Assembly: GCA_005879405.1 (NCBI GenBank)
Contig: VBKW01000089.1
Location: 1-35,695, forward strand
DNA: 35,695 nucleotides
From: Deltaproteobacteria bacterium
GTDB taxonomy: Bacteria > Desulfobacterota > Binatia > UTPRO1
Direction: 5' to 3'
The notes below the pieces were generated by a model. It made no database searches. It had not been told where the DNA came from and saw only the letters and a list, made by a program, of their open reading frames with translations. Shown one piece after another: positions 1 through 17,547 of the stretch. The position numbers were made by a program, and so were the translations under genes. Every line of letters begins with the position of its first letter. Position 1 is the stretch's first letter.

Positions 1-1105
1 CCGCCTCGTGCCGGAAGCGCATGAACTCGTCGTAGAGCTCGACGCGCTCGGCGAGCGCGGCGGCGTCCTCGCCCGCGGCGTCGCGCCGGATGAGGTCGGT
101 CAAGAAGTCGTTCTCGAGCGCGATGAAGTCGCTGCCGGGGCTGTAGAACGGGTCGGCGAACGCGGCCGCTTCACCGGAGAGACCCCAGCGCTCGCTGCTG
201 AAGAAACGCCTCGTCGCATAGGCGAGGTGCGCGTAGCTGCCGACGTCGAGCATCTCCGCGTGATCGAGCAGCGACGCGACTGCGCGGTGACGCCCGAGAA
301 ACTCGGTGAACCCGGTCCTCGTACGACACGGGCCGTCGACGGCGTCGCGATCGCCGACGACACCGACGCTCGTGACGCCCTCCTTCAGCGGGATGAACCA
401 GATCCAGTAGCCGGGATAGCAGAAGTGGACGGTCGACAGCATGCGGCTGCTATGGCGGACGCGCGCGCGGAAGCTCTCGGGTCCGAACTGGTCGAGGTCG
501 CGAACGCCGGTGTAACGTCCCCACACCGCCGCGATCGCATGCTCGCGTTCGGGGACGCGCAGACCCTTGGCGCGCGCGACGAGGCTCGCGCGCCCGGCCG
601 CGTCGACGAGCCAGCGGCTCTCGCAACGGCCGTCGACGCCGTCGCCGTGAAATGCGAAGCGATGCTGCGCGCCATCGGATCCGAGCTCCAGGTCGTGCAC
701 GCGCACGCCGGCTCGCAGCGCCACGCCGTCGGCGCCGTTCAGTGCCCAGAGATCGCGCTCGAGTCGCGCGCGGTTGATCTGAAACGCGGGATGGAACGGC
801 ATCGCGACCGATCCGACCTCGGTCATCTCGTGCAGCTCGGCGGTCTTCGCGGGCGTGTCGAAGAAGAAGCGCAGGCCGTTCTTCGGCAGGTGGCGATCGT
901 AGAGGTACGCGGAGAGACCGAGGCGACGAATGAGATAGTTGCTCGCGATCTCGACCGTCGACTCACCGACCTTGTACGAGCTCTCGGTCGCCTTCTCGAA
1001 CACGCCGACGCGGAGCTGCGGCAGCGTGCGCCGCAGCTGGCGTGCGAGCAGCGAGCCCGCGAGGCCGCCGCCGATGATCGCGACGTCGAGCGTCAGCCGT
1101 TCCAC
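1..1105 (-). CDS. FAD-dependent tryptophan-halogenase-like enzyme (C-terminus cut by window start)
   Basis: This is a flavin-dependent enzyme of the tryptophan halogenase family; 368 codons are visible and no stop is reached. The N-terminus has the FAD-binding motif GGGLAG (residues 12-17), a GEST motif (47-50) and the halogenase signature WIWFIP (234-239, pattern WxWxIP). K75, in PKNGLRFFF, sits where the catalytic lysine of PrnA-type halogenases is expected, and a late DPFYSPG motif matches the family FAD site. I chose the GTG start because GGGAGG lies four bases upstream and no better in-frame start exists. It is the last visible gene of the polyene-like cluster, 65 bp after the C45 hydrolase. 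Related genes accompany xanthomonadin and flexirubin clusters, so halogenation of an aryl group is the likely role. Some members act as plain oxidases or hydroxylases, and the substrate is unknown. Confidence 0.85.
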   Translation of the reverse strand, partial: MERLTLDVAIIGGGLAGSLLARQLRRTLPQLRVGVFEKATESSYKVGESTVEIASNYLIRRLGLSAYLYDRHLPKNGLRFFFDTPAKTAELHEMTEVGSVAMPFHPAFQINRARLERDLWALNGADGVALRAGVRVHDLELGSDGAQHRFAFHGDGVDGRCESRWLVDAAGRASLVARAKGLRVPEREHAIAAVWGRYTGVRDLDQFGPESFRARVRHSSRMLSTVHFCYPGYWIWFIPLKEGVTSVGVVGDRDAVDGPCRTRTGFTEFLGRHRAVASLLDHAEMLDVGSYAHLAYATRRFFSSERWGLSGEAAAFADPFYSPGSDFIALENDFLTDLIRRDAAGEDAAALAERVELYDEFMRFRHEA

Positions 1106-1170
1106 TCGGCCTCCCGCATCGCGCGACCATAGCAAAGCGCGCCGGCGCGCTGCACGCGGAATCTGTGGCG

Positions 1171-3045
1171 CTACTGCGCCGTGACCCCGCGCCGCGCTTC
1201 TACGTCCGCCGCCGGGCTCTCCGGCACGAGCTCCACGACGCGCTGCCACGCCGCGCGCGCGCCCTCGGCGTCGCCAGCCGCGGCGCGCGTCTCGGCGAGG
1301 CCGCGCCACGCGAGGTGGTCGTCGCCGCGGAGCGCCAGCGCACGCTCGAACTCTTCGATCGCCGCATCCGTCCGGCCGCGCGCCCGCTCGCGTTCGGCTT
1401 CGCGACGCATGCGGGCGCCGAGCAGCTGGCGGTCCAACGCGCGCAAGCCGAGGAGCGGGTCGGGCGGAATGTCGCCGCGGGCCTCGTACTCCGCGACGTC
1501 GTCGTGCGTGTCGTCCGCACGTTCACGAGCGTCGGCGCCGCGCGCCGAGTCGCCGGCTGCCGAATTGACCGGGTCGCCCCGTGCCCGCGTGTCGTCGTCG
1601 CCACGGGCGCCTCCCTCGCGCCGAGCCTCTGCCGGCTCGCCAATCGGACCACCGAGGCGAGCGCCGAGATCGATGCGGCGGTACGCCCCGAGCGTGTGCG
1701 GGCCTTCCGAGACCCACACGACGCGTGCCGTGAGATCGGCGACGACCGAATGGGTCGCGATCAGCGCATCGATCGCGTTGCGATTGCCGAGCGGCAGCGG
1801 GACGTCGTCGACGCCGCTCCGGTCGCGCAGAATCGCGACCGCCGTCCAGGCGTCGACGCGGCCGTCGGCGCGTGTGACGAGCTGCTCGAGACGCGCTTCG
1901 CGCTCGACCGTCGACGTGTGCTCGCGCACGAACACGTTCTTCGGATCGCTCGCGAACGCCGGCGCCGCGAAATGATTGGCGACGACCATCACCGACTGGC
2001 GACGGCGCACTGCCGGCTCGAGACCGGGGGCACGCTCGATGACGGCCGACTCGCCGCTGGTGCCGTCCGCGACGAGAAGCATGTGCGATGCCATCGGCGC
2101 GTCGCGGACGGCGATCGCGATCGCCTCGTCGAGCGTGTGCGCCTCCTCGAGGATCGTGCGCGTGGTGAAGACGACCGGGACGCCGTGCTCCTCGAACGTT
2201 CCCGCGCGCGCGCCGTTGACGCTCACCCAGATTCCGGCGGCGTTCATGCCGCTCACGACCCCGGTGAGGCCGGGCCAGGCGATCGACACGAAGGCGAGGC
2301 GGCCCGCCGGCTCGACGATCTGCACGGTCTTCTCGGTGTCGAACCACGGATCGACGTCGAGATCGAAGTTGCGGCCGACGATCGTGTGACCCGGCGTCCC
2401 GCCGGCGCGCGTCGCCTCGCCGGAGGCGACGAACGCGGTGCAGCCGAGGAGCGGTGAGCGTTCGAACGCGAGCGCGATGTCGTAGAGGGCGTGCAGATAG
2501 ACGAGGCGGTGGTAGGGCGTCAGAAACGCGGGGCCGCGATCGCCGTACGCGATCGACTCGCCGTAGATCTCGGCGCGCCGCTCGGCAGGGAAGCCGCGGT
2601 CGACGTCGCGGTAGCGTGCGCGCACGACCGTGGTGAGCACCGAACGCAGAGCGGCCGAGGGGACGAACGTCGCGAAGAGATCGAGCATGCGAGCGTCGCC
2701 GGCGGCCATGATCGGCGCCGTGAGCCGCGCGTGGCGATACCCGAGCTGAACCGGATCGCCCGCGAGGTGCATCACCCAGAGCGCGCCGCGCCGCTCGAGC
2801 GACGCCGGACCGACGCGTGCGACGCCGCCGTCGAACCGCAGCGCCTCGTCGGGAGGCGGCGCCATGTCCGGCGGCGCGATGCGCGTTGCGCGCTGGAACG
2901 CGATTGCCCCGGCGGCACCGAGGAGCGCGAACAGCAGGAGCGCGCGCAGCCCCCAGCGCCGGCGCCGCGGCGGGCGACCGGGTTCCGAGGCGCCATCGCG
3001 AGCGGCCGCATCGCGCGCGGCGGCGGTCGTGCTCGGGAGCGCCAC
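1171..3045 (-). CDS. Membrane-anchored C45-family autoproteolytic acyltransferase/hydrolase with TPR-like tail
   Basis: The 624-residue protein starts with an Arg-rich segment and one membrane helix (about residues 32-50), so the catalytic part is probably periplasmic. The core resembles peptidase family C45 (isopenicillin N acyltransferase-like Ntn hydrolases): GCTAF at 201-205 supplies the predicted self-processing point and nucleophile C202, followed by GRNFDLD near 224-230. These enzymes cleave or transfer acyl groups on amide bonds. After a charged, low-complexity linker (about 470-540), residues about 550-605 form helical TPR-like repeats. The GTG start is the first in-frame start before the membrane segment, though its ribosome site is weak. 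It lies 97 bp after the MMPL exporter and 65 bp before the halogenase-like gene, which suggests a late acylation or deacylation step on the exported product. The fusion to a TPR tail is unusual. The substrate is unknown. Confidence 0.8.
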   Translation of the reverse strand: MALPSTTAAARDAAARDGASEPGRPPRRRRWGLRALLLFALLGAAGAIAFQRATRIAPPDMAPPPDEALRFDGGVARVGPASLERRGALWVMHLAGDPVQLGYRHARLTAPIMAAGDARMLDLFATFVPSAALRSVLTTVVRARYRDVDRGFPAERRAEIYGESIAYGDRGPAFLTPYHRLVYLHALYDIALAFERSPLLGCTAFVASGEATRAGGTPGHTIVGRNFDLDVDPWFDTEKTVQIVEPAGRLAFVSIAWPGLTGVVSGMNAAGIWVSVNGARAGTFEEHGVPVVFTTRTILEEAHTLDEAIAIAVRDAPMASHMLLVADGTSGESAVIERAPGLEPAVRRRQSVMVVANHFAAPAFASDPKNVFVREHTSTVEREARLEQLVTRADGRVDAWTAVAILRDRSGVDDVPLPLGNRNAIDALIATHSVVADLTARVVWVSEGPHTLGAYRRIDLGARLGGPIGEPAEARREGGARGDDDTRARGDPVNSAAGDSARGADARERADDTHDDVAEYEARGDIPPDPLLGLRALDRQLLGARMRREAERERARGRTDAAIEEFERALALRGDDHLAWRGLAETRAAAGDAEGARAAWQRVVELVPESPAADVEARRGVTAQ

Positions 3046-3142: not shown

Positions 3143-5716
3143 TCAGCGCGCGTCGCGGCCGCGGGCGACGACGGCGAGGAATCCGGGAAGGAGGCAGATC
3201 GCGGCGGCGAACGCGGCGGCGATCGCGGTCATCGCCAGCCACCCGAGGCCCTCGAGGCCGCGGTAGCGCGAGACGGCGAGAAATCCGAATCCTGCCATGG
3301 TGGTGAGCGTCGTGAGAGCCATGGCACGACCGACGAGCCGCGCCGCCGTGCCGAGGTCGACGCCCTCGCGCCAGCGTTGCACGAGATAGACGCAGTAATC
3401 GACGCCGATGCCGAGCGTCAGCGGCAGCACGATCAAGTTGATCGGCGTGAACGCGACGCCGGCAAGATGCATCGCCTCGATCGTGCCGAAGACGACGACG
3501 ATCGTCGGCAGGATGACGGCGAGCGCCGGCGCCAGCGCGCGCAGCTGCAGCAGCACGATGATGAGGTTCAGGATCACGCTCGCGACCGTGAACGCGACGA
3601 CCTCGCGGGCGATCACCGTGGCGAGCGCCGCCTCCATGAACGCCCGCCCGGTCACGACGACGTCGTCGCCGATGTCGGCGCGCAGCTGCTCGCGGATGGC
3701 GGCGAGACTCGCGCCCGCAGCGGGCGTGAACATGACCGCCAGCGTGACGCCGTCCGGGGTGCGCCGGAGATGGCGTTGCACGAGCGGGCGCAGCCAGGGC
3801 GCGTCGAGGTCGCGCGGGAGCGCCGCGTCGCTCGCGGCGAGCGCGGCTGCGGCGTCCGCGAACGCGTCGACGCGGAAGCGCTGGCGGGCGAGCTCGGTGA
3901 CGAGCGCCGCGCGCGCGCGCGCCAACGGCAACTCCGCGAAGGCCGCGCGTCGCGCCGCCTCGGTGGCGCGCGAAGGCAGGAACGTGGTGAGCGCCTGATA
4001 TCCGGAGATCGCGAGAGCAGGGTCCCCGGCGGTCGTGGCGTCGCCCTGGACCGCATCTGCCGCGTCGGCTGCGCGGCTGCCGGGACGCGTGTCGGTTGCG
4101 ACCGACTCGCGAGCGCCTGGCGCGCCCGGCGCACGATGCGCCTCGAGCCACTCGACGACGCGCTCCTCGCGCGCGAGCGCCTGCTCGAGGTCGGGCCCCG
4201 TGACCATCGCATGGCCGTCCGGGATGAGCGCGCCGAATTTCTCCTGGATCGCGTCTTCGGCCGCGACGGCCTGGGACCCGGTCGCGCGCAAGTGCAGCAT
4301 GTCGGCATCGACCGGAATCGGCGGTCGTACCGCGATCCAGATGACGCCGATCGCGGAGGCGACGAGCAGCGCGGGCAACGGCTGACGCCAGGACGCGGCC
4401 GCGATCGCCCCGAGCCACGGCGCTTCGAGCGGCGCCGCCGGCGGCGCCGCGAGACGGCCGGGGAACGTCGCCACGAGCGCCGGCAGGACGACGAACGTAT
4501 TGACGATGTTGACGAGCATGCCGATCGCGGTGAGCACGCCGATCTCACGCACGGCCGCGAGCGTCGAGAAGGCGATCACGGCGAACGCCGCCGCGGTCGT
4601 CGTCGACGCGACGACGTTGGCGACGCCGAGTCCCGCGCAGGTGCGCGTGATCGCCTCGTCGAGCGAGGCGGTCCGCCGCTCCTCCAGGAGGCGCCCGTAG
4701 AAGTAGATCACCGAGTCGATCGCGAGCCCGTAGAAGATCGCCGCGAAGCACAGCGACAGCGCGTTCAAGCGGCTGTAGACGATCACCGACGTCGCGAACG
4801 CGAAGAGCGACCCGGCGACGAGCTGGTAGCCGATCAACGGCAAGATGCCGAGATTGCGAAAGCCGAGCTGAAAGATCGCGATCACGCCGACGAGGGCGAG
4901 GAGCGTGTAGCGGATGACGTCGCGCTCGATCAGCTGCGCGTCCTCGCGCGCATGCGCGTGGGCGCCGCCGTAGAGAATCCGGAGACCGGCAAGCGCCGGA
5001 TCGGCGCGGACGTCGCGCTCGACCGCCTCCAGTCCGGCGAAGAGCTGGGCGGTGAAGACGCCGTCGAACGGCGACCCGGTGGGATCGAGCAGCAGCAGCC
5101 CCGACGTGCCGTCGGGGCTGAGGATGTGCGGATCCGTCGCCGCCGCCAGCGGATCGGCGTAGCGATCGCGGATCGTCTGGCCGGCGACGAGCGCGAGGCC
5201 GAGCGGGTCACGGCGGAGATGCTCGGTCATCTCGCCGCCGCCCGGCATCGACAGGATCTTCTTCACCTGGGCGACCGCGGTCGCGATCGCGTCGGGCTCG
5301 AGCCGCGCGGCGAGCTCGTCACGGCGCTCACGCGGGATGATCGCCGGCACGTGCACGGGATCGAGGAACGGGACGTCGCCGCCGGCGGCGTCTCGCCCGG
5401 CGATGACGTTCGCGACCTGCGGCAGCGCGCGATACCCCGCGGCCAGGCGGTCGATCGCGCGGCCGAGGACGGGGCCTTCGACACCGGAGACGAGCACCGG
5501 CAGCATCTGCAGCGAGCCGAACGTCTCGAGAAACTGCTTGTACTCGTCGAACGCGGGTGTCCCCGTCGGCAACGTCGACAGCAGATCGACGTCGAGGCGG
5601 AGCCGCGTGAGCGAGAGCACGCTGGCGAGCGTCAGCGCGAGCGAGCCGAGCAGCACGAGGCGGCGCCGGCGTACGGCCCACGCGCCGACGCTCCCCGCGA
5701 CGCTACGACCGCTCAC
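3143..5716 (-). CDS. MMPL/RND-family exporter (ApeM-like)
   Basis: This 857-residue inner-membrane transporter of the RND superfamily has two similar halves. Each has one N-terminal helix, a large periplasmic loop and a bundle of about five helices. The first helix is near residues 20-38, and the second half repeats the pattern from about residue 450. Length and layout match MMPL exporters in aryl polyene clusters and the hopanoid exporter HpnN. The GTG start overlaps the stop of the upstream lipoprotein gene in a GTGA junction, so the two are probably translationally coupled. Immediate neighbours are a lipoprotein, a LolA-like carrier and the dehydratase, a combination that implies transfer of a lipid-like polyene from the inner to the outer membrane. 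The direction and substrate are inferred from context. Confidence 0.9.
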   Translation of the reverse strand: MSGRSVAGSVGAWAVRRRRLVLLGSLALTLASVLSLTRLRLDVDLLSTLPTGTPAFDEYKQFLETFGSLQMLPVLVSGVEGPVLGRAIDRLAAGYRALPQVANVIAGRDAAGGDVPFLDPVHVPAIIPRERRDELAARLEPDAIATAVAQVKKILSMPGGGEMTEHLRRDPLGLALVAGQTIRDRYADPLAAATDPHILSPDGTSGLLLLDPTGSPFDGVFTAQLFAGLEAVERDVRADPALAGLRILYGGAHAHAREDAQLIERDVIRYTLLALVGVIAIFQLGFRNLGILPLIGYQLVAGSLFAFATSVIVYSRLNALSLCFAAIFYGLAIDSVIYFYGRLLEERRTASLDEAITRTCAGLGVANVVASTTTAAAFAVIAFSTLAAVREIGVLTAIGMLVNIVNTFVVLPALVATFPGRLAAPPAAPLEAPWLGAIAAASWRQPLPALLVASAIGVIWIAVRPPIPVDADMLHLRATGSQAVAAEDAIQEKFGALIPDGHAMVTGPDLEQALAREERVVEWLEAHRAPGAPGARESVATDTRPGSRAADAADAVQGDATTAGDPALAISGYQALTTFLPSRATEAARRAAFAELPLARARAALVTELARQRFRVDAFADAAAALAASDAALPRDLDAPWLRPLVQRHLRRTPDGVTLAVMFTPAAGASLAAIREQLRADIGDDVVVTGRAFMEAALATVIAREVVAFTVASVILNLIIVLLQLRALAPALAVILPTIVVVFGTIEAMHLAGVAFTPINLIVLPLTLGIGVDYCVYLVQRWREGVDLGTAARLVGRAMALTTLTTMAGFGFLAVSRYRGLEGLGWLAMTAIAAAFAAAICLLPGFLAVVARGRDAR

Positions 5717-6423
5717 GCGCGCGGCGCCGATGCGAGGCGCGCCCGCTGCACGTGTATCGCCATGCCGGCGCCGCTCGTCGGATCGGCGATGTGGAGATCG
5801 GTCGGCGCCGCATGCGGATCGTCGCGCGTGTAGCCCTCGTAGGTGGCGACGAGGAGCGACGTGCCGTCGTCGCGCACGTACTCCTCACGCACCGGGCGCA
5901 GCTGGTCGTCCACCGTCACGCGCGCGTGCAGTGCCGGCGCGACGCGACAGACGATGGTCGCGCCGCGCCCGCTGCACGCGTCCGGACGCGCCTTCGGCTG
6001 GAAGAGCAGCGCGAGCGCGACGATCATCCGATCCGAGACCGCGACCGCCGGATCGGCGAGCGTGGCGGGATCGATCGTCCCCTGCGTCGTTTGCTGGCGG
6101 AGCGGCAAGCTGAGGGTGTATCCGCCGTCGCGAATCGTCAGATCGAGGACCGTCATCCCGAAAGCAGAAAGCACTTGCAGGCGGATCGCGCCGGCGTCAT
6201 CGATCGCGAGGTACGCGGGCGAGGGGAGGACGCTCGCGTGCTCGGTGCCGACGAGACGCACCGTCATCGAGAGACGCAGGCCGCGCGTCGCGCGCTCGCG
6301 CGCGGCGAGCGCCGCGACGACCGCCTGCGGCGTCGCCGCCGTGCCGACGTGCGGCCGCCGCGGCGCGACGCAGCCGACCACGAGCGCGACGACCGCACAG
6401 AGCGCGGCGACGCCGCGGCTCAC
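5713..6423 (-). CDS. Lipoprotein of the polyene export module
   Basis: This 236-residue predicted lipoprotein has a short signal sequence ending in the lipobox LVVGC with modified cysteine C18. The body is rich in beta-strand patterns and resembles small outer-membrane or periplasmic lipid-handling lipoproteins (LolB/DUF3261-type) that accompany MMPL exporters in aryl polyene clusters; I cannot assign the exact family by eye. It starts at GTG, overlapping the dehydratase stop by GTGA, and its own TGA overlaps the GTG of the MMPL gene in the same way. No +2 aspartate follows the cysteine (the next residue is Val), which in enterobacterial sorting rules would favour the outer membrane. A role in receiving exported product is inferred from position. 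Confidence 0.75.
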   Translation of the reverse strand: MSRGVAALCAVVALVVGCVAPRRPHVGTAATPQAVVAALAARERATRGLRLSMTVRLVGTEHASVLPSPAYLAIDDAGAIRLQVLSAFGMTVLDLTIRDGGYTLSLPLRQQTTQGTIDPATLADPAVAVSDRMIVALALLFQPKARPDACSGRGATIVCRVAPALHARVTVDDQLRPVREEYVRDDGTSLLVATYEGYTRDDPHAAPTDLHIADPTSGAGMAIHVQRARLASAPRA

Positions 6424-6869
6424 GCCTCGGGGCTCCGGACGGGCGCGAATGCCAGGGTCAGGATCGCGGTCGCGCACACCTGCCCACCGGCGACGGCGCG
6501 ACCGTGGATGCGTGCCATGTCGGCGTAGCGGCGTGTGACCGTGATCTCGACCATGAGGACGTCGCCGGCACGCGCCGGGGCGCTCACCTCGCAGCGATCG
6601 ATCGCGGCGAGCACGGCGTTGCCGAGCGCGCGCAGCGCCGGCTCGCGCCGCATCAAGACGAGACCCGCCGCCTGCGCCATCGCCTCGACGACGAGAATCG
6701 GCGACAGGACGCCCGACGGGCCGACCAGCGGGTCGTCGACGGTCAGCCCCTTGCTGAACCGGCCGCCTTGCTCGTCGATTGCGAGGATCCGATCGAGGAG
6801 GAGAAACGGCGCCGCGTGCGGCAGGAAGTCCGCCGCGAGGTCGCCCGCCGACGGGACACGCGTGCTCAC
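6420..6869 (-). CDS. Hotdog-fold 3-hydroxyacyl-ACP dehydratase-like protein (FabZ/ApeP type)
   Basis: This 149-residue hotdog protein probably dehydrates 3-hydroxyacyl-ACP to the trans-2-enoyl form during polyene chain growth. The N-terminal LPHAAPFLLLDRI segment (residues 16-28) matches the FabZ start, and E62 in VEAMAQ matches the catalytic acid on the central helix. The usual GHFPG motif carrying the catalytic histidine is absent; its place is taken by residues around PLVGPSG (47-53). ApeP-type dehydratases of aryl polyene clusters also depart from the FabZ motif, so this may be the non-classical partner of a second dehydratase outside the window. GTG overlaps the LolA-like stop (GTGA), and its TGA overlaps the lipoprotein start. 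No enoyl reductase is seen nearby, consistent with a conjugated polyene product. Confidence 0.8.
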   Translation of the reverse strand: MSTRVPSAGDLAADFLPHAAPFLLLDRILAIDEQGGRFSKGLTVDDPLVGPSGVLSPILVVEAMAQAAGLVLMRREPALRALGNAVLAAIDRCEVSAPARAGDVLMVEITVTRRYADMARIHGRAVAGGQVCATAILTLAFAPVRSPEA

Positions 6870-7603
6870 GCGCTCGTCCCCGGCGTCGAGCGCGGCGCCG
6901 CGGCCGACGTCGCAGGCAGCGGGCGCAGGTGGATCGTGGTGCGGTCGCCGCCGCGCTCACGCAGGACGACGTCGGTCGCGAACGGACCGTCGGGCGCGAA
7001 GCGCAGCTCGACCTCGCTGAACGGCGCGGCGGGATCGCTCGGGCGGAGCGTCACCGCGTCGGGACCGTGCCACTCCTCGCGGAACTGCTCCGGGCCCTTT
7101 CCGCCGAGCATGAGATCGGTCATGACGTGGCCGAAGCGCGTGAAGCCAGAGAACTCCGGCGGGACCGCGACCGGCGCGCCGGCGGCGTCGAGCACGGTCA
7201 GCGTGTCGCCGTCGACCGCGATGGTCATCGTCTCCGGCGCGGTGAGCGCGAGCCGCATGTGATCGGGAGCGCGAAACTCGATCGTGCCGCTGGCGCGCAG
7301 CACCTCGTCGACGAGCGATACCTCGCGCTCCTGCTCGAAGAGCGCGCGCGCCGTCGTGACCGGCGGAAACCGCCGCGCCCGCGCCGCGAGCGACTGCGGG
7401 GCGGCGGCGCCCGCCTCGGACTGCCGCGCAGCGTCGGTCGCGACGGCGTGCCACGGCGCCATCACGTCGGCGGCGAAGGCAATGGACCACCACGACGCGG
7501 CGGTGGTGAGAGCGATCGCGAGCGCGCCGGCGGCACGCCGTCGGCGGGCAGCCGTTCTCGTCGTCACGGGCTGCCGTCCCGCGGGAGCAGTCCCTCTCCT
7601 CAC
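6866..7603 (-). CDS. LolA-like outer-membrane lipoprotein carrier protein (ApeL type)
   Basis: This is a secreted periplasmic carrier of the LolA fold, about 245 residues. An Arg-rich n-region and a hydrophobic stretch end in AFA, with cleavage expected before the next alanine. The mature part has the LolA-like pattern of beta-strands (for example the run around ASGTIEFRAPDHMRLALT) and a C-terminal beta-rich half. Such carriers sit beside MMPL exporters in aryl polyene clusters and are thought to ferry the lipid product. The start is uncertain. GTG at 7603 overlaps the chain-length-factor stop as GTGA, matching three further GTGA junctions in this run. GTG at 7567 would give a tidier 34-residue signal peptide. 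Neither has a convincing ribosome site. Confidence 0.78.
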   Translation of the reverse strand: MRRGTAPAGRQPVTTRTAARRRRAAGALAIALTTAASWWSIAFAADVMAPWHAVATDAARQSEAGAAAPQSLAARARRFPPVTTARALFEQEREVSLVDEVLRASGTIEFRAPDHMRLALTAPETMTIAVDGDTLTVLDAAGAPVAVPPEFSGFTRFGHVMTDLMLGGKGPEQFREEWHGPDAVTLRPSDPAAPFSEVELRFAPDGPFATDVVLRERGGDRTTIHLRPLPATSAAAPRSTPGTSA

Positions 7604-8844
7604 GGCTGCGCCAAGAGAAGCGCCGTGCAAGCGCCGCCGCGGGCGGTGCCGGAGACGAGCGCGGCACGCACCCGTGCCGGTGGCGGCGCGTCGGTCGTCG
7701 CGAGACGCAGCGCGCACGCCGGATCGGGGCGGCGGAGCATCGCGAGCGGAGGCACCGCGCGATCGCGCAGGGCGAGCGCCGCGGCCGCGACGCTGAACGC
7801 CCCGGCGCCGCCGAACTCGCCGATGGCGCCTTTCACCGACGTGACGAGCGCGCCAGGCGCGCGCTCGCCGAGAAGTGCCGCCAGATGCGTCGCCTCGAAC
7901 GCGTCGAGATCGCGCGTCGAGTTGGCGCACGAGACGATGACGTCGATCGCGTCCGCCGCGCGCAGGCGGCGCAGCTCGTCCGCGATCGCGGGGACGGCCG
8001 CCGGCCGCGGCCAGAGGTGCGTCGGCGCGGCGACGCTCCGCATCGCGTGGCCGACGAGCTCGGCGTACGGCGTCGCGCCGCGCGCGCGCGCGTGCTCGGC
8101 ACGCTCGAGGAGCAGCATCGCGACGCCTTCGCCCATCACCATGCCGTTGCGGTCGCGGTCGAACGGGCTCGACCATTCCCGTCCGCTCGCGCCGCCGCCG
8201 CGGCGGCGACGGCCGGGTGACAGAACGCCGAGGTCCTTGTTGACGTGGAAGAGGACGGGCGAGAGCTCGTCGCCGCCGCCCGCGAGCACGACGTCGGCGT
8301 GGCCGCACACGATCGTGTCGTACGCGACGGCGAGCGCCGCTTCGCCGGAGATCTCGTTGCGGCACACGGTCGAGTTCGGGCCGCGCAGCCCGAGCTCGAT
8401 CGCGACGTAGCCCGCCGCGGCGTTGAGGACGAGATTCGGGAAGATCATCGGGTTCGCGAGCGCCGGCCCCTTGGCGATCAGGCCGCCGAGGAAGGTCTCG
8501 GTCTCGAGGAGATTCCCGTACGCGCAGCCGATCACGACGCCGATCGCGTCCGCCTCGGTCGCGCTCGGCGCCAGCGCGCCGTCGTCGAGCGCCATGCGAC
8601 ACGCGCTCACCGCCATTTGCGAGAAGCGATCCATCCGTCGCAGCGACGTCGGCTTGATGTGGTCCTTCGGCTGCCAATCGCGCACGCGCGCCGCCGTTCC
8701 GGGCGGCGTCGGTCCAGGGTCGAACCAGTCGATCGGCACGAAGCCGTGCTCGCCCGCGCGTACGCGGTGCCAGAAGCGCGGCAGCGGCCCGAGCGGGCTC
8801 ACCATGCCGATCCCGGTCACCACGACGCGCGCGAGCTCACGCAT
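7600..8844 (-). CDS. Ketosynthase-like chain-length factor without catalytic triad (ApeC-like)
   Basis: This 414-residue thiolase-fold protein is related to FabF but has lost catalysis. Aligning GPNSTVCRNE (from G155) with the FabF active-site loop puts E164 where the nucleophilic cysteine should be; C161 is three residues too early. The HGTxT histidine region reads CANST (306-310), and the second histidine is E343 in VKGAIGEF, although K338 remains. These changes are those of a chain-length factor that pairs with an active ketosynthase, as in type II polyketide and aryl polyene systems. It overlaps the ketosynthase gene by 8 bp (ATGCGTGA), so the two are probably made in equal amounts as a heterodimer. 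ApeC is the nearest named equivalent by position and logic; orthology is not proven. Confidence 0.85.
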   Translation of the reverse strand: MRELARVVVTGIGMVSPLGPLPRFWHRVRAGEHGFVPIDWFDPGPTPPGTAARVRDWQPKDHIKPTSLRRMDRFSQMAVSACRMALDDGALAPSATEADAIGVVIGCAYGNLLETETFLGGLIAKGPALANPMIFPNLVLNAAAGYVAIELGLRGPNSTVCRNEISGEAALAVAYDTIVCGHADVVLAGGGDELSPVLFHVNKDLGVLSPGRRRRGGGASGREWSSPFDRDRNGMVMGEGVAMLLLERAEHARARGATPYAELVGHAMRSVAAPTHLWPRPAAVPAIADELRRLRAADAIDVIVSCANSTRDLDAFEATHLAALLGERAPGALVTSVKGAIGEFGGAGAFSVAAAALALRDRAVPPLAMLRRPDPACALRLATTDAPPPARVRAALVSGTARGGACTALLLAQP

Positions 8845-10054
8845 GGCCGAGCACCACCGAGGTGTTGTTGCCGCCGAACCCGTACGAGTTGGAGAGCGCG
8901 TAGCGCAGCGTCGCGTCGCGGCTCCCGCCGGGCACGAGATCGAGCGCCCATTCCGACTCCGGCTCCTCCAGGTTGACGGTCGGCGGCACGAAGCCGTCGC
9001 GCAGCGCGAGAATCGTCGCCAGCGCTTCGATCGCCCCCGCGGCGCCGAGCGTGTGGCCGACGGCGCCTTTCGTCGAGCTCACCGCGAGGTGCGGCGCCTC
9101 GCCGAACACGATGCCGATCGCCGCCGCCTCGACCGCGTCGTTCAGCGGCGTGCCGGTGCCGTGGGCGTTGATGTAGTCGATGTCCGCGGGCTGGAGACCG
9201 GCGTTCGCGAGCGCGCGCGTCATGGCGAGGATCGCCCCCGTGCCTTGCGGATGCGGCGCCGTCAGATGATGCGCGTCGGCGCTGTTGCCCCAGCCGACGA
9301 GCGCGGCATGCGCGCGCGCGCCGCGGCGCGCGGCGTGAGTTGCGGACTCGACGACGAGAATCGCCGCGCCTTCACCGAGGGAGAGACCGGCGCGCCGGCG
9401 ATCGAACGGCCGGCACGGCTCGAGCGAGAGCGCGTGCAGCGCGTTGAACCCCGCGAACGTCATGCGGCAGAGAGACTCCGTGCCGCCGGTCACGACGGCG
9501 TCGACGCGTCCGAGGCGGAGCCAATCGAGCGCCGTCCCGAGCGCGTTGCCGCTGGACGAGCACGCGGTGCTGAGCGCGAGTCGCGGGCCGCGCAGGTCGA
9601 ACACGTCCGCGACGACGTCGGCGCTGACCGAGATCGGGGCGCCGATGATCGGATCGGCGCCGTAGCGCGCGCTCCGCCCCTCGATACGCGCGCGTAGACA
9701 CTCCTCGGCGCGCAGCATCCCGCCGGTCGTGCCGCCGAGGACGACGCCGATGCGGTCCGGGGCGACCGCGTCCGTGATGCCGCTCTCCGCGAGCGCCTCC
9801 GCCGTTGCGCGCAGCGCGAACACGTCGGATCGCGACGAGCGTCGCCGCAGCGCGCGCGGGAGCGTCGCAGGCGCGTCGTCGTCGTGTACCTGGGCCGCGA
9901 TGCGGGCGCGATACCCTTTGGTGTCGAAGAGCGTCACCGGTCCGATCGCCGACGTGCCCGCGCGCAGCGCGGCCGCGAACTCGGCGACCGAGCTCCCGAG
10001 CGCGTTCACCGTCCCCAGGCCGGTGACGACCACCTGCGGGGCGCTAGCCTGCAT
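8837..10054 (-). CDS. 3-oxoacyl-ACP synthase, FabF-like (ApeO-type ketosynthase)
   Basis: This 405-residue condensing enzyme elongates an ACP-bound acyl or aryl chain with malonyl-ACP units. The whole triad is present: C165 in STACSSSG, H298 in HGTGTPLND and H334 in VGHTLGAAG, with K329 in SSTKG. The length is normal for FabF. The ATG start is preceded by GGTGAG two bases upstream, and there is a 55-bp gap after the ACP gene. The next gene is its catalytically dead paralogue, so the pair probably forms a KS-CLF heterodimer that sets chain length. It stands in an operon with ACP, reductase and dehydratase rather than with housekeeping fab genes, so a specialised-product role is more likely than primary fatty acid synthesis. 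Confidence 0.92.
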   Translation of the reverse strand: MQASAPQVVVTGLGTVNALGSSVAEFAAALRAGTSAIGPVTLFDTKGYRARIAAQVHDDDAPATLPRALRRRSSRSDVFALRATAEALAESGITDAVAPDRIGVVLGGTTGGMLRAEECLRARIEGRSARYGADPIIGAPISVSADVVADVFDLRGPRLALSTACSSSGNALGTALDWLRLGRVDAVVTGGTESLCRMTFAGFNALHALSLEPCRPFDRRRAGLSLGEGAAILVVESATHAARRGARAHAALVGWGNSADAHHLTAPHPQGTGAILAMTRALANAGLQPADIDYINAHGTGTPLNDAVEAAAIGIVFGEAPHLAVSSTKGAVGHTLGAAGAIEALATILALRDGFVPPTVNLEEPESEWALDLVPGGSRDATLRYALSNSYGFGGNNTSVVLGHA

Positions 10055-10109: not shown

Positions 10110-10385
10110 TCAGGCGCCACGGCTCTGCTCGGCCGCGATGAAATCGGCGAGCGCATTGATCGACGCGAACGCTTTCTTCCCGACCTCCTCGTCGGGGATG
10201 GCGATGCCGAAATGTTCCTCGATCAGCACGACCAGCTCGAGGGCGTCGATCGAGTCGAGGCCGAGACCGTCGACGAAGATCGGCTGGTCGTCGGCGATGC
10301 CGGCCGGGGCGACGTCTTGCAAACGCAGACCCGTGATCAAGAGCTCTTTCAGCCGGCGCTTCAGATCGTCGGAGTTTGTCGTCAT
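10110..10385 (-). CDS. Acyl carrier protein
   Basis: This 91-residue acyl carrier protein carries the growing chain as a thioester on phosphopantetheine. The attachment serine is S45 in GLDSIDALEL, and acidic helix II (LVVLIEEHFGIAIPDEE) follows as in the family. The ATG overlaps the stop of the reductase gene (ATGA), showing tight coupling. It is the only ACP visible in the cluster, so it probably accepts both the starter from the ligase and the elongation intermediates. Aryl polyene clusters commonly carry two ACPs, so a second could lie beyond the window start. Confidence 0.93.
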   Translation of the reverse strand: MTTNSDDLKRRLKELLITGLRLQDVAPAGIADDQPIFVDGLGLDSIDALELVVLIEEHFGIAIPDEEVGKKAFASINALADFIAAEQSRGA

Positions 10386-11123
10386 CCCATGACCAGCCCG
10401 CCGTCGACGGCGAGCATCGCTCCAGTAATATAGGACGCGGCCGGCGAGGTGAGAAACAGGACGGCGGCGGCGATCTCGTCGGGGCGCCCGGTGCGGCCGA
10501 GCGGAATCTGCGCGGCCATCTCCTCGCGCACGTGCGTCGGCACCGCGTCGAGCATCGGCGTCTCGACGATCCCCGGGCAGACGGCGTTCACCGTGATCCC
10601 GAAGCGCGCCACCTCACGCGCGAGCGAGCGCGTCATGCTGAGAAGACCGCCCTTCGACGCCGCGTAGTTCGCCGCGCCGGTTTTGCCGACGAGCCCCGCC
10701 GGTGAGATGACGTTGACGATCCGGCCCCAGCGCTGCGCGATCATCGGCCTGAGCGCGCGCCGCACGCAGAGAAACGGCCCCGTGAGATTCGTCGCCAGCA
10801 CCTCGTCCCAGGCCTCGTCGGAGAGCATCATCAAGTGCGCGTCCCTTCAGCTCGCCGAAGAGCGCCGCCACCGCTTGCGCGTCGCGCACGTCGGATCGCC
10901 GCACCACGTGCTCGCCGCCGACCTGCGCCAGCGCCGCCGCCGCCGATTCCGCATCGCTCTCCCGCGCAGCCCACGTGACGGTGACCGCCGCGCCCGCCCG
11001 CGCGAACGCCAGCGCGATCGCACGTCCGATCCCGCGCGTACCGCCGGTCACGAGCGCCCGCCGCCCCGCCAGCGCTCGCGTCGAGAAGACGCTCGCGATC
11101 GCGTCCTCAGCCGGCGGTGTCAC
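10382..11123 (-). pseudogene. 3-oxoacyl-ACP reductase (FabG-like SDR) broken by internal deletion and frameshift
   Basis: Two frames together encode one short-chain dehydrogenase that reduces 3-oxoacyl-ACP. The first frame (11123 to about 10846) carries the NADPH motif TGGTRGIG and ends in ALFGELKG. The second frame (about 10846 to 10382) resumes at RDAHLMMLSDEAWDEV and contains NYAASKGG with the catalytic Tyr and Lys. Compared with FabG, about a dozen residues are missing at the join, including the NNAG motif that holds the cofactor and catalytic Asn, so a small deletion changed the frame. It may be a genuine inactivating mutation, a programmed event (unlikely, as residues are absent) or an assembly error. 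The proposed GTG start has GGGAG just upstream; GTG at 11138 is an alternative. Because the operon is otherwise intact, an assembly or culture artefact is quite possible. Confidence 0.82.
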
Positions 11124-11258
11124 GGTCTCCCGCGTCACGCGCACCCGATCCGCGCCCCGCGAGCGCGACGCCCGCGGCGGCGAGGCGCTGCGACCGAGAC
11201 GTCGACGCGATATGCGAGACTGTGCGGAATCGTGCTCATGTCGCCGGGTGAGACTCCT

Positions 11259-11287
11259 CGTAAACAATGCGATGCCGATGGAGTCAA
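11259..11287 (-). promoter_or_regulatory. Possible sigma70-type promoter for the reductase-ACP-ketosynthase run
   Basis: On the minus strand TTGACT (11287-11282) is followed after exactly 17 bases by TTTACG (11264-11259). The -35 box matches consensus at five of six positions and the -10 at three. It lies about 135 bp before the reductase start in the 263-bp gap after the ligase gene, the longest gap inside the cluster, so a second transcript starting here is plausible. A 9-bp inverted pair GATCACGCG (11300-11308) and CGCGTGATC (11350-11358) lies just upstream and could be an operator or weak terminator. Confidence 0.35.
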
Positions 11288-11386
11288 ACCGCGTCACACG
11301 ATCACGCGAGGTCGCGCGGCCAATGCCGGAGGACGAGCTACGGCGAGGCCGCGTGATCTGGGATTGCCACGTGCAGGCGCCTCGAA

Positions 11387-12832
11387 TCACGCGTCCTCGA
11401 GCAGCTCCCCGATGAGGATTTTACCGAGCGGCGACCGTGGAAGCGCATCGCGGAACGTGATCACCCGCGGGATCTTGTACGATGCGATCAGCCTCCCGCA
11501 ATGGACGCGCAGATCCTCCGCCGTGCACGACACGCGCGGGACCACGGCTGCCGCGACGACCTGATCGCCGTGCGGTGTCGGAGTCCCGAACACCGCGACG
11601 TCGGCAACCGCGGGATGACCCCGCAGCACCGCCTCGACCTCCGCCGGGTTCACCTTGTTGCCCGCGCTATTGATGAAGAGGCTCGTACGCCCGGTGATCA
11701 CGAGATCGCCGCGCTCGCTCCAGTGGCCTTCGTCGCGGGTGCGCAGCGGCTGCGCGGGGCCGCCCATCGCCGAGTCACTGCGGACGATGATCTCGCCGGT
11801 CGCGCCGGGCGCGACCTCGGCGCCGTTCGCGTCCTCGATCGTGACCCGCACGGTTCCGACCGGGCGGCCCACGCTCGTCGGGTCGAGCTCCGTGAGCGGC
11901 GCGGTGTTGAGCGCGACGTCGCCGGCCTCGGTCAAGCCGTAGAGCTGCCGGATCGGAATGCCGAAGCGCGTGAGGAAGGCGTCGTAGACGTCGCGCGTCA
12001 GCGGCGCGCCGGCGCTGATGCAGAGCCGAACAGCGTCGAGTGACCAGCGTCGGCTGCGGTCCGTCGTGACGAGCATGCGCGCCATGAACGGCACCGTCGG
12101 GAAGACGGTCACCGCGCCCGCGGTGAGGAGATCGAGGGTCGGCCGGCGCAGGAACCGCGGTCGCAAGACGAGCCGTGCCCCCGTCCGCAGGCTCGTGAGG
12201 AGCGCGTTGCCGAGCCCGTAGGAGTGCGAGAGCGGGATCACGCCGAGGATCGCGTCGGCGCGGCCGATGTCGGTCGCCGCGGCGATGTTCTCCGCCTCCC
12301 ACCAGAGATTCTCGTGCGTGCGGACGACGGGCTGCGGGCGGCCAGTCGTGCCCGAGGAGTACGCGACGAACGCCGGGTCGTTCGCGATCGGCGGGCGCGG
12401 CGGGCGATGCGCGCCGCGGAGCGCCCGTGCGACGCGCAACCCGCCGGGCTCGACCGCCAGCGCGGCGAGCCCGGGCGGCGCGACGTCGGCGCTCTGCGCG
12501 GCGCCGACGAGCGCGCATGCCGCCGCTTCGGCGAGCGCGCGGCGAACCTCGGCCGCCGGTGCGACCGGCGCGAGCACCTGCGCCTGCGCGCCGCACGCCA
12601 GCACGCCGAGAAACGCCTCGACGAAGCCGACCGAGTTCGTGAGCCAGAGCGCGACGCGGTCGCCACCACCGATGCCCGCGGTCGCGAGCACGGCGGCGGC
12701 GCGGGTGACGCGCGTCGCGAGCTCGGAGGCGGTGAGCGCGACGTGCTCGTCTTCCACCAGCGGATGGCCGCGATCGCGTGCGGCGGCCGCGGCGAGCAGC
12801 GCCGTCACGGTGCGGTCGGGAGATCGGGCCAT
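11387..12832 (-). CDS. AMP-dependent acyl/aryl ligase (class I adenylate-forming enzyme)
   Basis: This 481-residue adenylating enzyme activates a carboxylic acid as acyl-AMP and transfers it to CoA or an ACP. The ATP-binding loop YSSGTTGRPQ lies at 158-167, with Q in place of the usual K of the GxPK motif. The adenine motif YGLTEAG, the SERGDLV motif of the hinge region and the C-terminal catalytic lysine K471 in PRSPLGKI are all present. In aryl polyene clusters the equivalent ligase (ApeH; XanA2 in xanthomonadin) loads 4-hydroxycinnamate- or hydroxybenzoate-type starters, so aryl priming is the likely role here. A fatty acid starter cannot be excluded. It is the first gene of the cluster and diverges from a response regulator gene, with 151 bp between the starts. 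Confidence 0.88.
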   Translation of the reverse strand: MARSPDRTVTALLAAAAARDRGHPLVEDEHVALTASELATRVTRAAAVLATAGIGGGDRVALWLTNSVGFVEAFLGVLACGAQAQVLAPVAPAAEVRRALAEAAACALVGAAQSADVAPPGLAALAVEPGGLRVARALRGAHRPPRPPIANDPAFVAYSSGTTGRPQPVVRTHENLWWEAENIAAATDIGRADAILGVIPLSHSYGLGNALLTSLRTGARLVLRPRFLRRPTLDLLTAGAVTVFPTVPFMARMLVTTDRSRRWSLDAVRLCISAGAPLTRDVYDAFLTRFGIPIRQLYGLTEAGDVALNTAPLTELDPTSVGRPVGTVRVTIEDANGAEVAPGATGEIIVRSDSAMGGPAQPLRTRDEGHWSERGDLVITGRTSLFINSAGNKVNPAEVEAVLRGHPAVADVAVFGTPTPHGDQVVAAAVVPRVSCTAEDLRVHCGRLIASYKIPRVITFRDALPRSPLGKILIGELLEDA

Positions 12833-12983
12833 CAGTCGACGTGCGTGTTACCACAGCGTCTCCGCGTTGCCGAGGCGCGCGCGTCCGTGTGAGCGATGTC
12901 GCCGCGTCGAAACGGCTGGCGCGGGGTCGCCGAGTGGTCTACAAAGAACTGCCCCCCTTCATCGATGTGGTGGTGAGATGACG

Positions 12984-13442
12984 ATGGCGAAAACGAATGC
13001 TTCGCACCAGAAGGCCCGGGCACCCGAAGAACGTCCGACGATTCGACTGCTGCTGGTCGACGACCATCCGCTCGTTCGCGAGGGGCTGAAGCGCGTGCTC
13101 AGCTCGATGGTCGGAGTATTCGTCGTCGGCGAGGCGTCGACGGGTGAGGACGCGATCGCGCGCGTCCGCGACCTCGAGCCCGACATCGTCATGATGGATC
13201 TGTCGCTGCCGAAGATGAGCGGCATCGAGGCGACGCGCATCATCCGCAAGGATTTCCCGCAGACGCGCGTGCTCGCGCTCACGATGCACATGGAGGAGGT
13301 CTACGTCCGCGGCGCGCTCGAGGCGGGCGCGAGCGGCTACCTCGTGAAAGACGCGCGTCCGAACGAGCTCGTGCGGGCGATCGAAACGGTCCAGAGCGGC
13401 GAGCCCTACGTGATGACGGGTGCGGCGCCGAAACTTCGCTGA
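12984..13442 (+). CDS. Receiver-only response regulator (NarL/FixJ-type without DNA-binding domain)
   Basis: This 152-residue protein contains one complete receiver domain after a 20-residue charged leader. The acidic pair D26-D27, phospho-acceptor D72 in MMDLSLPKMSG, the switch Thr in LALTMHM and K122 in YLVKDA are all present. It ends shortly after the receiver at MTGAAPKLR, where NarL-type regulators would enter the linker to the LuxR HTH, so the output domain is missing. I prefer ATG at 12984 because GGTGAG lies six bases before it; ATG at 12978 has no spacing. It is closely similar to the receiver of the LuxR-type regulator at 28390-29037. It may act by protein contact, as a phosphate sink, or be a truncated remnant. 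A 35-bp gap separates it from the diiron protein gene. Confidence 0.85.
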   Translation: MAKTNASHQKARAPEERPTIRLLLVDDHPLVREGLKRVLSSMVGVFVVGEASTGEDAIARVRDLEPDIVMMDLSLPKMSGIEATRIIRKDFPQTRVLALTMHMEEVYVRGALEAGASGYLVKDARPNELVRAIETVQSGEPYVMTGAAPKLR

Positions 13443-15909: not shown

Positions 15910-17376
15910 TCAGGGGGCCGTCAATCGCAGCGGCAGCTCTTTCGCGACGTTCCAGCCGTCGTGCAGATCGATGTACGCTTGGTCGACGTCGTCGCGCGGC
16001 ATGCAGCCGGCGCGCGCGCGCACGAGCGGCTCCATGTCGGCGACCGGAAGCGTCGTCACCGGCGGCGCGTCGAGCGGCGCCGTTGCGAGGCCGTCGACGC
16101 TGTGCTCGGCGAGCCCGCTGTACACGTTGCCCGCGGTAAACACGGGTCCCGACTGGATCAGCCGCAGCGCGCTGCGCGGCTTCCCCCCGATCGTGTGCGC
16201 GTACGGCCCGAGGTCGAAGAGCGAGCTCACCACGTTGCCGCTGGCGTCGGCCTCGAACCGCACGCCCCACATCGCCCAGTCCTCGACGATGACGTTGCGG
16301 ACGTCGGCGCGGACCGCGCTGGAGACGAGCGGGCCGCGAATCCATTGCTTCATCACCCACGTGTGATGGATCGACACGTCGGTCGTCGCACCGTACTTCA
16401 CGAAGAGCGAGCGCGTATTGCCGGCGACGAAGCTCCACTGCACGGTGACGTCGTGCGCGCCGTAGCCGATCGAGATGCCGTCGTCGGCGGCGCCGGTCGA
16501 CGACACGTGGCTGAAGACGACGTTGTACGCGCCGTCGCCTTGCGCGCGCAGGTTGTCGCCGCCGTTCCGCACCCGGAGGTTGCGGACGATCACGTCGTGG
16601 CCGCTCACCTCGAGAATCGGCGCGCTCGGGTCGATGCCGCTGCCGATCAACGTCGCGCCGTTGCCTTCGACCGTGACGAACGCGCCGCTGAGATACGGCA
16701 GCCGGCTCGTCACGACGATCGGCCCGGCGACGTCGAAGCTCACGATCGCGCCGCCGCTGCGCGCCTCCGCAAACGCAGCGCGGACCGCGGCTTCTGTCGG
16801 CTCCGCGACGCGAATCGTCCGGCCACCCGCGCCGCCTGCCGTCGTCGCGCCGAAGCCCTCGAGCGCGCCGTCGTCGAGCGCGCCGACGGGCGGTGCCGGT
16901 GGCGCCGGCGGCTCGACGACGATCGTCCTGCTCGCGGTCGCGACGTGAGATGCGTCGGCGACGCCGACGACCGCCACGTACGTGCCCGGTGTCGTGTACA
17001 CGTGCGTAACCCGGGCGCTCGACGCCGCCGGGTCGCGCGCCGTTCGGCCGCCGGCGACCGTACCGTCGCCGAAGTTCCATGAGAACGTCAGCGGGTCGCC
17101 GTCGCGGTCGCGTGACCGGCGGGCGCTCAGTGTGACGGTGAGCGGCGCCGCTCCCGACGTGGGCGACACGTGCAGACGCGGCGTCGGTGCCCTGTTCGGT
17201 ACGGGCGCGGTGGTCGCGTCGTCACCGAGGTGCGCGGGCGCGGCGGTCGCGCGCGTCGCCGTTGCGACGGTCAGAGCCGCGAGCGCGGCGACGAGAACGC
17301 GGCGTCGCGCCAAATACGTCGGTGACGACGTTGCCTGGCGCCGCGGACGGCGCTGCGTCGGGTGCTCGCGCTTCAT
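15910..17376 (-). CDS. Secreted PKD-domain pectate-lyase-like beta-helix protein
   Basis: This is a secreted protein of about 488 residues. A basic n-region and a hydrophobic segment (LVAALAALTV) form a signal peptide, with cleavage expected near ATAA. A PKD-type immunoglobulin-like domain follows, with WNFGDGT and HVYTTPGTY motifs. After a Pro/Ala-rich linker, the rest resembles pectate lyase family PL1 right-handed beta-helices: DDGISIGYGAHDVTVQWS matches the region of calcium-binding aspartates and IRGPLVSSAVRADVRN resembles the RxPxxR catalytic segment. It could cleave polygalacturonate or another acidic polysaccharide, or only bind one. The ATG at 17376 was chosen because the signal peptide begins soon after it; the frame stays open upstream to 17463. 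It has no operon partner, and it diverges from the membrane protein gene at 17548. Confidence 0.8.
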   Translation of the reverse strand: MKREHPTQRRPRRQATSSPTYLARRRVLVAALAALTVATATRATAAPAHLGDDATTAPVPNRAPTPRLHVSPTSGAAPLTVTLSARRSRDRDGDPLTFSWNFGDGTVAGGRTARDPAASSARVTHVYTTPGTYVAVVGVADASHVATASRTIVVEPPAPPAPPVGALDDGALEGFGATTAGGAGGRTIRVAEPTEAAVRAAFAEARSGGAIVSFDVAGPIVVTSRLPYLSGAFVTVEGNGATLIGSGIDPSAPILEVSGHDVIVRNLRVRNGGDNLRAQGDGAYNVVFSHVSSTGAADDGISIGYGAHDVTVQWSFVAGNTRSLFVKYGATTDVSIHHTWVMKQWIRGPLVSSAVRADVRNVIVEDWAMWGVRFEADASGNVVSSLFDLGPYAHTIGGKPRSALRLIQSGPVFTAGNVYSGLAEHSVDGLATAPLDAPPVTTLPVADMEPLVRARAGCMPRDDVDQAYIDLHDGWNVAKELPLRLTAP

Positions 17377-17547
17377 GGCGCATGACGATGCACCCGCCGT
17401 GCCGACGGCGTAGGCGAACCATTCCCGCAGCCGATGGCGTGCGCGGCCGCAAGCCGCCGTCACTCGTCAACGCGGCGACGAGCATCCGCTCTGCGACTTG
17501 ACGTGCGCGCTTGCAATTTGCGCCACGGCACACGACTCTCGCGCGCC

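Follow-up and report, generated by a model that had tools for sequence, protein, structure and literature searches.

A membrane-anchored C45 proenzyme as a candidate for a late, export-associated step in an aryl-polyene-type operon of a deltaproteobacterium

We analysed a 35,695-nt stretch of a deltaproteobacterial draft genome (hereafter the window; contig VBKW01000089.1) which carries an aryl-polyene-type operon and, directly beside the exporter gene of that operon, a gene for a C45-family protein with a membrane anchor, a pro-segment and a TPR-like tail. Our preferred reading, to which we assign a probability of roughly 55%, is that this protein represents a flexirubin-cluster C45 that is anchored, activates itself and acts late, at export, passing the polyene acyl group to an anchor. 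Little is understood of how aryl polyenes become attached to their anchor in the outer membrane, and a conserved, anchored, putatively self-activating C45 offers a concrete candidate for a post-export step.

The C45 open reading frame and its predicted active site

The open reading frame has coding-like composition (GC of 0.77/0.58/0.86 at the three codon positions), and it is not a chance frame, because in a genus-mate (G001) an orthologue of 70-75% identity lies in the same gene order. It matches the family models NF040521 (153.1 bits against a cut-off of 85, residues 96-442) and PF03417 (60.9 bits against 23.2, residues 219-411), and its predicted nucleophile, Cys202, is the sole cysteine of the protein, all of which bears out the sequence-only reading, which had called a C45 enzyme with this nucleophile. 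Judged by these matches and by residue conservation, the protein is a C45 family member with a pro-segment before the cysteine and conserved Arg, Asp and Asn residues at the predicted active site; in addition to those listed in Table 1, N268 is conserved in 28 of 29 C45s.

A nine-sequence profile run against solved structures recovered penicillin acyltransferase (2x1d) at E 1.7e-19, NAAA at 4e-12 and acid ceramidase at 4e-10; Cys202 aligns with the cysteine of the first and with residue 1 of the beta subunit in each of the other two. Autoprocessing at Gly201/Cys202 is probable by homology to these processed subunits, as the query cysteine falls on the first residue of both beta chains.

The expected N-terminal membrane anchor was recovered as a hydrophobic stretch following an RRRR run, and the catalytic domain is predicted to lie on the periplasmic side, because positive residues precede a single hydrophobic helix in all five members of the clade described below (positive-inside rule). 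The proposed C-terminal TPR-like segment is borne out: Pfam TPR models match it and AlphaFold2 models it as helices (pLDDT about 80-92), but it is short, at about two repeats. The AlphaFold2 alignments consisted of two rows (the window and L010 sequences only), and the catalytic domain was modelled at a mean pLDDT of 42 and 39, too poor for judging an acyl pocket.

Table 1. Features of the C45 gene and its operon, in window coordinates.
Feature	Position	Strand	Basis or remark
C45 proenzyme ORF, 624 aa	1171..3045	-	GTG start at 3045, stop ends 1171; G001 orthologue in same gene order
C45 pro-segment and catalytic domain (residues 96-442)	1720..2760	-	NF040521 match; PF03417
Codon of predicted nucleophile Cys202, after Gly201; predicted self-cleavage point	2440..2442	-	
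GRNFD motif (residues 224-228)	2362..2376	-	R225 and D228 invariant in 29 C45s
Asn357 in TNH/ANH motif	1975..1977	-	Conserved in 28/29; motif also aligned in penicillin acyltransferase structures
Predicted N-terminal transmembrane anchor (residues ~32-50), RRRR just before	2896..2952	-	Hydropathy scan, KD19 = 2.0
C-terminal TPR segment (residues ~550-611)	1213..1398	-	Pfam TPR models; AF2 helices
AMP-dependent acyl ligase, ApeH-like	11387..12832	-	PF00501, 231.7 bits
3-oxoacyl reductase (SDR), broken in window	10382..11390	-	47-nt deletion relative to G001
Acyl carrier protein (ACP), PRK09184 subfamily	10110..10385	-	Score above cut-off
Ketosynthase (KS1), C-H-H triad kept	8837..10054	-	High on PRK09185 KS model, but below cut-off
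Chain-length-factor-like KS (KS2)	7600..8844	-	Cys kept, both catalytic His positions lost
LolA-like carrier	6869..7567	-	PF03548, 36.7 bits
FabA/FabZ-like dehydratase	6423..6869	-	PF07977
Lipoprotein in ApeN/LolB position, lipobox LVVGC	5716..6423	-	Assigned by position and lipobox only; no Pfam match; 70% in G001
MMPL/RND exporter, 857 aa, ApeM-like	3143..5716	-	PF03176, 94 bits
Halogenase-like FAD enzyme (CmlS/Trp-halogenase-like), WxWxIP motif	1..1132 (1132 to <1), cut by contig end	-	NF033113, PF04820

An aryl-polyene-type operon with a dedicated export set

The C45 gene is the tenth of eleven on the minus strand, a strand that the sequence-only reading did not state, in the order AMP ligase, SDR, ACP, KS, chain-length factor (CLF), LolA, dehydratase, lipoprotein, MMPL, C45 and halogenase-like gene, with the exporter 97 nt upstream and the halogenase-like gene 38 nt downstream. 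Both its placement between exporter and halogenase and the identification of a polyene operon, as given from the letters alone, hold: the gene set of the aryl-polyene type is present from ligase to MMPL. The flexirubin-type core comprises KS and CLF, ACP, dehydratase, activating ligase and a reductase that is broken in the window and intact in G001, and a dedicated export set is formed by the MMPL/RND protein, LolA and a LolB-like lipoprotein, the last of these recognised by position and lipobox. KS2 is read as the chain-length factor because both of its histidine positions are lost. The 47-nt deletion in the SDR gene shifts the frame and removes the NNAG region, which may reflect a genuinely broken gene or a fault in the assembly.

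The operon resembles an APE cluster without being a canonical one, as the acyltransferase (LPLAT) and glycosyltransferase of the ApeD/ApeJ type are missing; close homologues of both are absent from the window's genome (G000) and from G001 (MAGs that are 96% and 93% complete). As to the supply of an aryl starter, the ammonia lyase of the Persicobacter cluster described below gave no tblastn match in the window, which ends inside the cluster, or in the searched G001 stretches. Four deltaproteobacterial genomes have been counted in the literature as holding more than half of the gene set. Outside the operon, a receiver-only response regulator (12978-13439) is encoded divergently and is conserved in G001, and a protein that looks secreted, with a PKD domain and repeats hinting at a beta-helix, is encoded at 15913-17466, upstream of a gene for a DegP-like protease in the same orientation.

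Linkage to polyene genes is conserved within one C45 clade

In G001 the order from ligase to C45 is kept, and the halogenase-like gene follows after some 5 kb of additional sequence. Between the C45 and halogenase-like genes an insertion of lower GC (L012 4282-6796) contains ORFs named by eye as HicB-like and MqsA-like. Past the halogenase-like gene (L018 12620-16000 with L012 1-956), G001 encodes an ACP, a 462-aa condensation-like protein without a Pfam match, a FAD oxidoreductase and an AMP ligase. Versions of this condensation-like protein are also encoded in the window's genome (G000:C262, 75%) and in a sister genus (G002:C164, 55%).

A distant member of the same phylum (G282) encodes a C45 of 37% identity, with anchor and TPR-like tail, which adjoins KS, SDR, FAD oxidoreductase and an MMPL-LPLAT-methyltransferase fusion on a contig that also has CLF, LolA, thioesterase and polysaccharide deacetylase homologues. 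The same C45 type occurs on two Bacteroidota plasmids, Persicobacter pPP6, where it sits in a complete set including the ammonia lyase, and Aureispira pAUEa; both share the order MMPL fusion (annotated as an acyltransferase in Persicobacter), FAD oxidoreductase, C45 and AMP-binding protein. Among 29 C45s, the five from these clusters (window, G001, G282, Persicobacter and Aureispira) form one clade (support 100/99), cluster linkage requires a single change on the tree (0/500 shuffles as low), and all five share the positive-then-hydrophobic N terminus and the TPR-like tail. KS, LolA and MMPL neighbours were found at none of the 17 other C45 loci with fetched flanks; for the seven further C45s of the tree the flanks spanned only ~1 kb.

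These results bear on whether the C45 could be a bystander, a general-metabolism C45-TPR amidase lying in the operon by chance. Such C45-TPR proteins do exist elsewhere in the phylum without polyene genes, but linkage to polyene genes is seen in two phyla and agrees with a clade of the C45 tree, the intergenic gaps are short, and we regard this explanation as highly improbable. In the survey of C45-TPR fusions with MMPL, LolA and KS genes that had been proposed, the linkage proved to be kept in G001, G282 and the two plasmids; the fusion also occurs outside such clusters. As a signature of polyene clusters the fusion was rejected, as other C45s of the phylum carry TPR-like tails elsewhere. C45s outside polyene clusters (L023, L026, L029 and L037-L039) have an N-terminal hydrophobic segment and C-terminal extensions, mostly TPR-like. 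A second C45-like protein of the window's own genome (L013, G000:C298:10218-10868, minus strand) has Ser (GGSTVF) at the position of the nucleophile, as do relatives in three genomes of the family (L014-L016), which lie a few kb from AMP-binding ORFs.

Within the phylum the C45 cluster gene appears sporadic, because a search of the order of G282 gave no second case of a C45 in such a cluster. Searching the phylum with KS2 was too unspecific for counting polyene clusters, with 379/395 genomes matching, and at 16 fetched loci with high-scoring CLF-like matches, several of them probably other KS clusters, there was no C45 nearby. A scan of genome contigs returned one real relative, the contig of the congener, and a scan of viral contigs returned none.

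C45 and LPLAT/GT2 in related genomes

The sister genus (G002) shares the ligase, ACP, KS, CLF, dehydratase and halogenase-like genes at 54-75% identity and carries a lipid-A-type LPLAT and a GT2, with no match to the C45; against its LPLAT and GT2, G000 and G001 gave weak homologues alone, mostly about 26-39% over part of the query. This opposition of C45 and LPLAT/GT2, from one genome versus two drafts, suggests a swap in the attachment machinery. As a general rule, replacement of LPLAT/GT2 by C45 was rejected, as Bacteroidota clusters (Persicobacter) carry all three together. That the C45 took over ApeD/ApeJ-type attachment in this lineage, coupling a halogenated polyene after its export to an amine or hydroxyl anchor at the periplasmic face, strikes us as unlikely; if true, it would imply a polyene conjugate that has not yet been described.

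A proposed late role and its rivals

Under our preferred reading, the C45 would be made as an inactive precursor with one N-terminal helix in the inner membrane and the remainder in the periplasm, and would then cleave itself between Gly201 and Cys202, making Cys202 the N-terminal nucleophile. It would act late, where the polyene leaves the MMPL exporter and either ahead of LolA/LolB-type transfer to the outer membrane or in the course of it, with Cys202 taking the polyene acyl group from an exported carrier and handing it to a hydroxyl or amine on the anchor, while the TPR tail would probably dock a pathway partner. Action during or after export is suggested by the location of the gene with those for MMPL, LolA and the lipoprotein. 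The family, the catalytic residues, the anchor, the TPR tail, the operon, its conserved linkage and the distinct clade are established by the analysis, and from these we infer self-cleavage, a periplasmic location and action on the polyene; transfer rather than hydrolysis is speculative, as is the identity of the acceptor.

Several points count against this late transferase. The closest solved relatives include the hydrolases NAAA and acid ceramidase besides a transferase, and Bacteroidota clusters hold C45, LPLAT and GT2, so the C45 is not a simple replacement. Furthermore, the periplasm is not expected to offer an activated thioester donor, so transfer would need an ester donor.

One rival is a periplasmic hydrolase: an amidase or esterase that would release the polyene from the carrier used for export, or would trim or recycle conjugates that had failed. 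NAAA and acid ceramidase, which come next after penicillin acyltransferase among the solved relatives, are hydrolases of lipid amides, and where CoA and ACP are lacking, as in the periplasm, the simplest acceptor is water. However, the end products of APE and flexirubin pathways are esterified or lipid-attached (PMC8253772, PMC3992019) so that a final step of pure hydrolysis has no obvious use, and we consider this reading somewhat improbable. The sequence-only reading had proposed that the enzyme attaches the exported polyene to an amine. Acylation by this enzyme, an amine as acceptor and the polyene as substrate are all putative, and a hydrolase role fits the family equally well; acyl attachment is a reasonable idea and its occurrence in the periplasm plausible, but the amine acceptor is a guess and an amide product speculation.

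The further suggestion that such a step would be new for aryl polyenes is weaker than thought: a C45-type gene, the 'acyl-CoA 6-APA acyltransferase' group, was listed with Flavobacteriia APE genes in 2018 (PMC5932025), and a 'ligase-like enzyme (FlxW)' was proposed in 2014 to esterify the polyene to dialkylresorcinol (PMC3992019). Our literature search found no paper that tests a flexirubin-cluster C45. By gene order FlxW may be the C45, since flxW lies between flxV and flxY and the Persicobacter and Aureispira C45s lie between a FAD oxidoreductase and an AMP ligase, and the C45 of the window could then esterify a dialkylresorcinol, as suggested for FlxW of Chitinophaga (C. pinensis). Against this, the 'acyl-CoA 6-APA acyltransferase' group of Flavobacteriia shows a bias shared with the APE genes whereas darA and darB are distributed differently (PMC5932025), and no DarA/DarB was seen within the clusters read, leaving a dialkylresorcinol ester quite unlikely.

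Comparison with known systems

By profile, the C45 shares its fold family, its cysteine site and the GxNxD and TNH motifs with the Penicillium acyl-CoA:isopenicillin N acyltransferase (2x1d), which is soluble, lacks a membrane anchor or TPR and uses acyl-CoA. Like NAAA and acid ceramidase, N-terminal-Cys, self-cleaved enzymes of lipid amides, it presents a cysteine that aligns with beta-subunit residue 1, but those are animal lysosomal hydrolases without TPR and outside any biosynthetic cluster. The window operon has counterparts of ApeH, Q, E/F, R/O, C, L, P/I, N and M from the APE cluster of E. coli (apeA-R), whereas that cluster has ApeD and ApeJ (lysophospholipid acyltransferase and glycosyltransferase/acyltransferase) and no C45 in its published gene table (PMC8253772). 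The clusters of Flavobacteriia are alike in annotation and cluster kind, and the Bacteroidota cluster C45s share clade, anchor and tail; the window differs in coming from a high-GC, deltaproteobacterium-type genome and in its smaller operon, without LPLAT/GT2 and with a halogenase-like gene. The C45 described here is a further member of a known but uncharacterised flexirubin-cluster component, whose role can be tested in genetically tractable flavobacteria, for which a C45-type gene is listed among the flexirubin/APE gene sets (PMC5932025).
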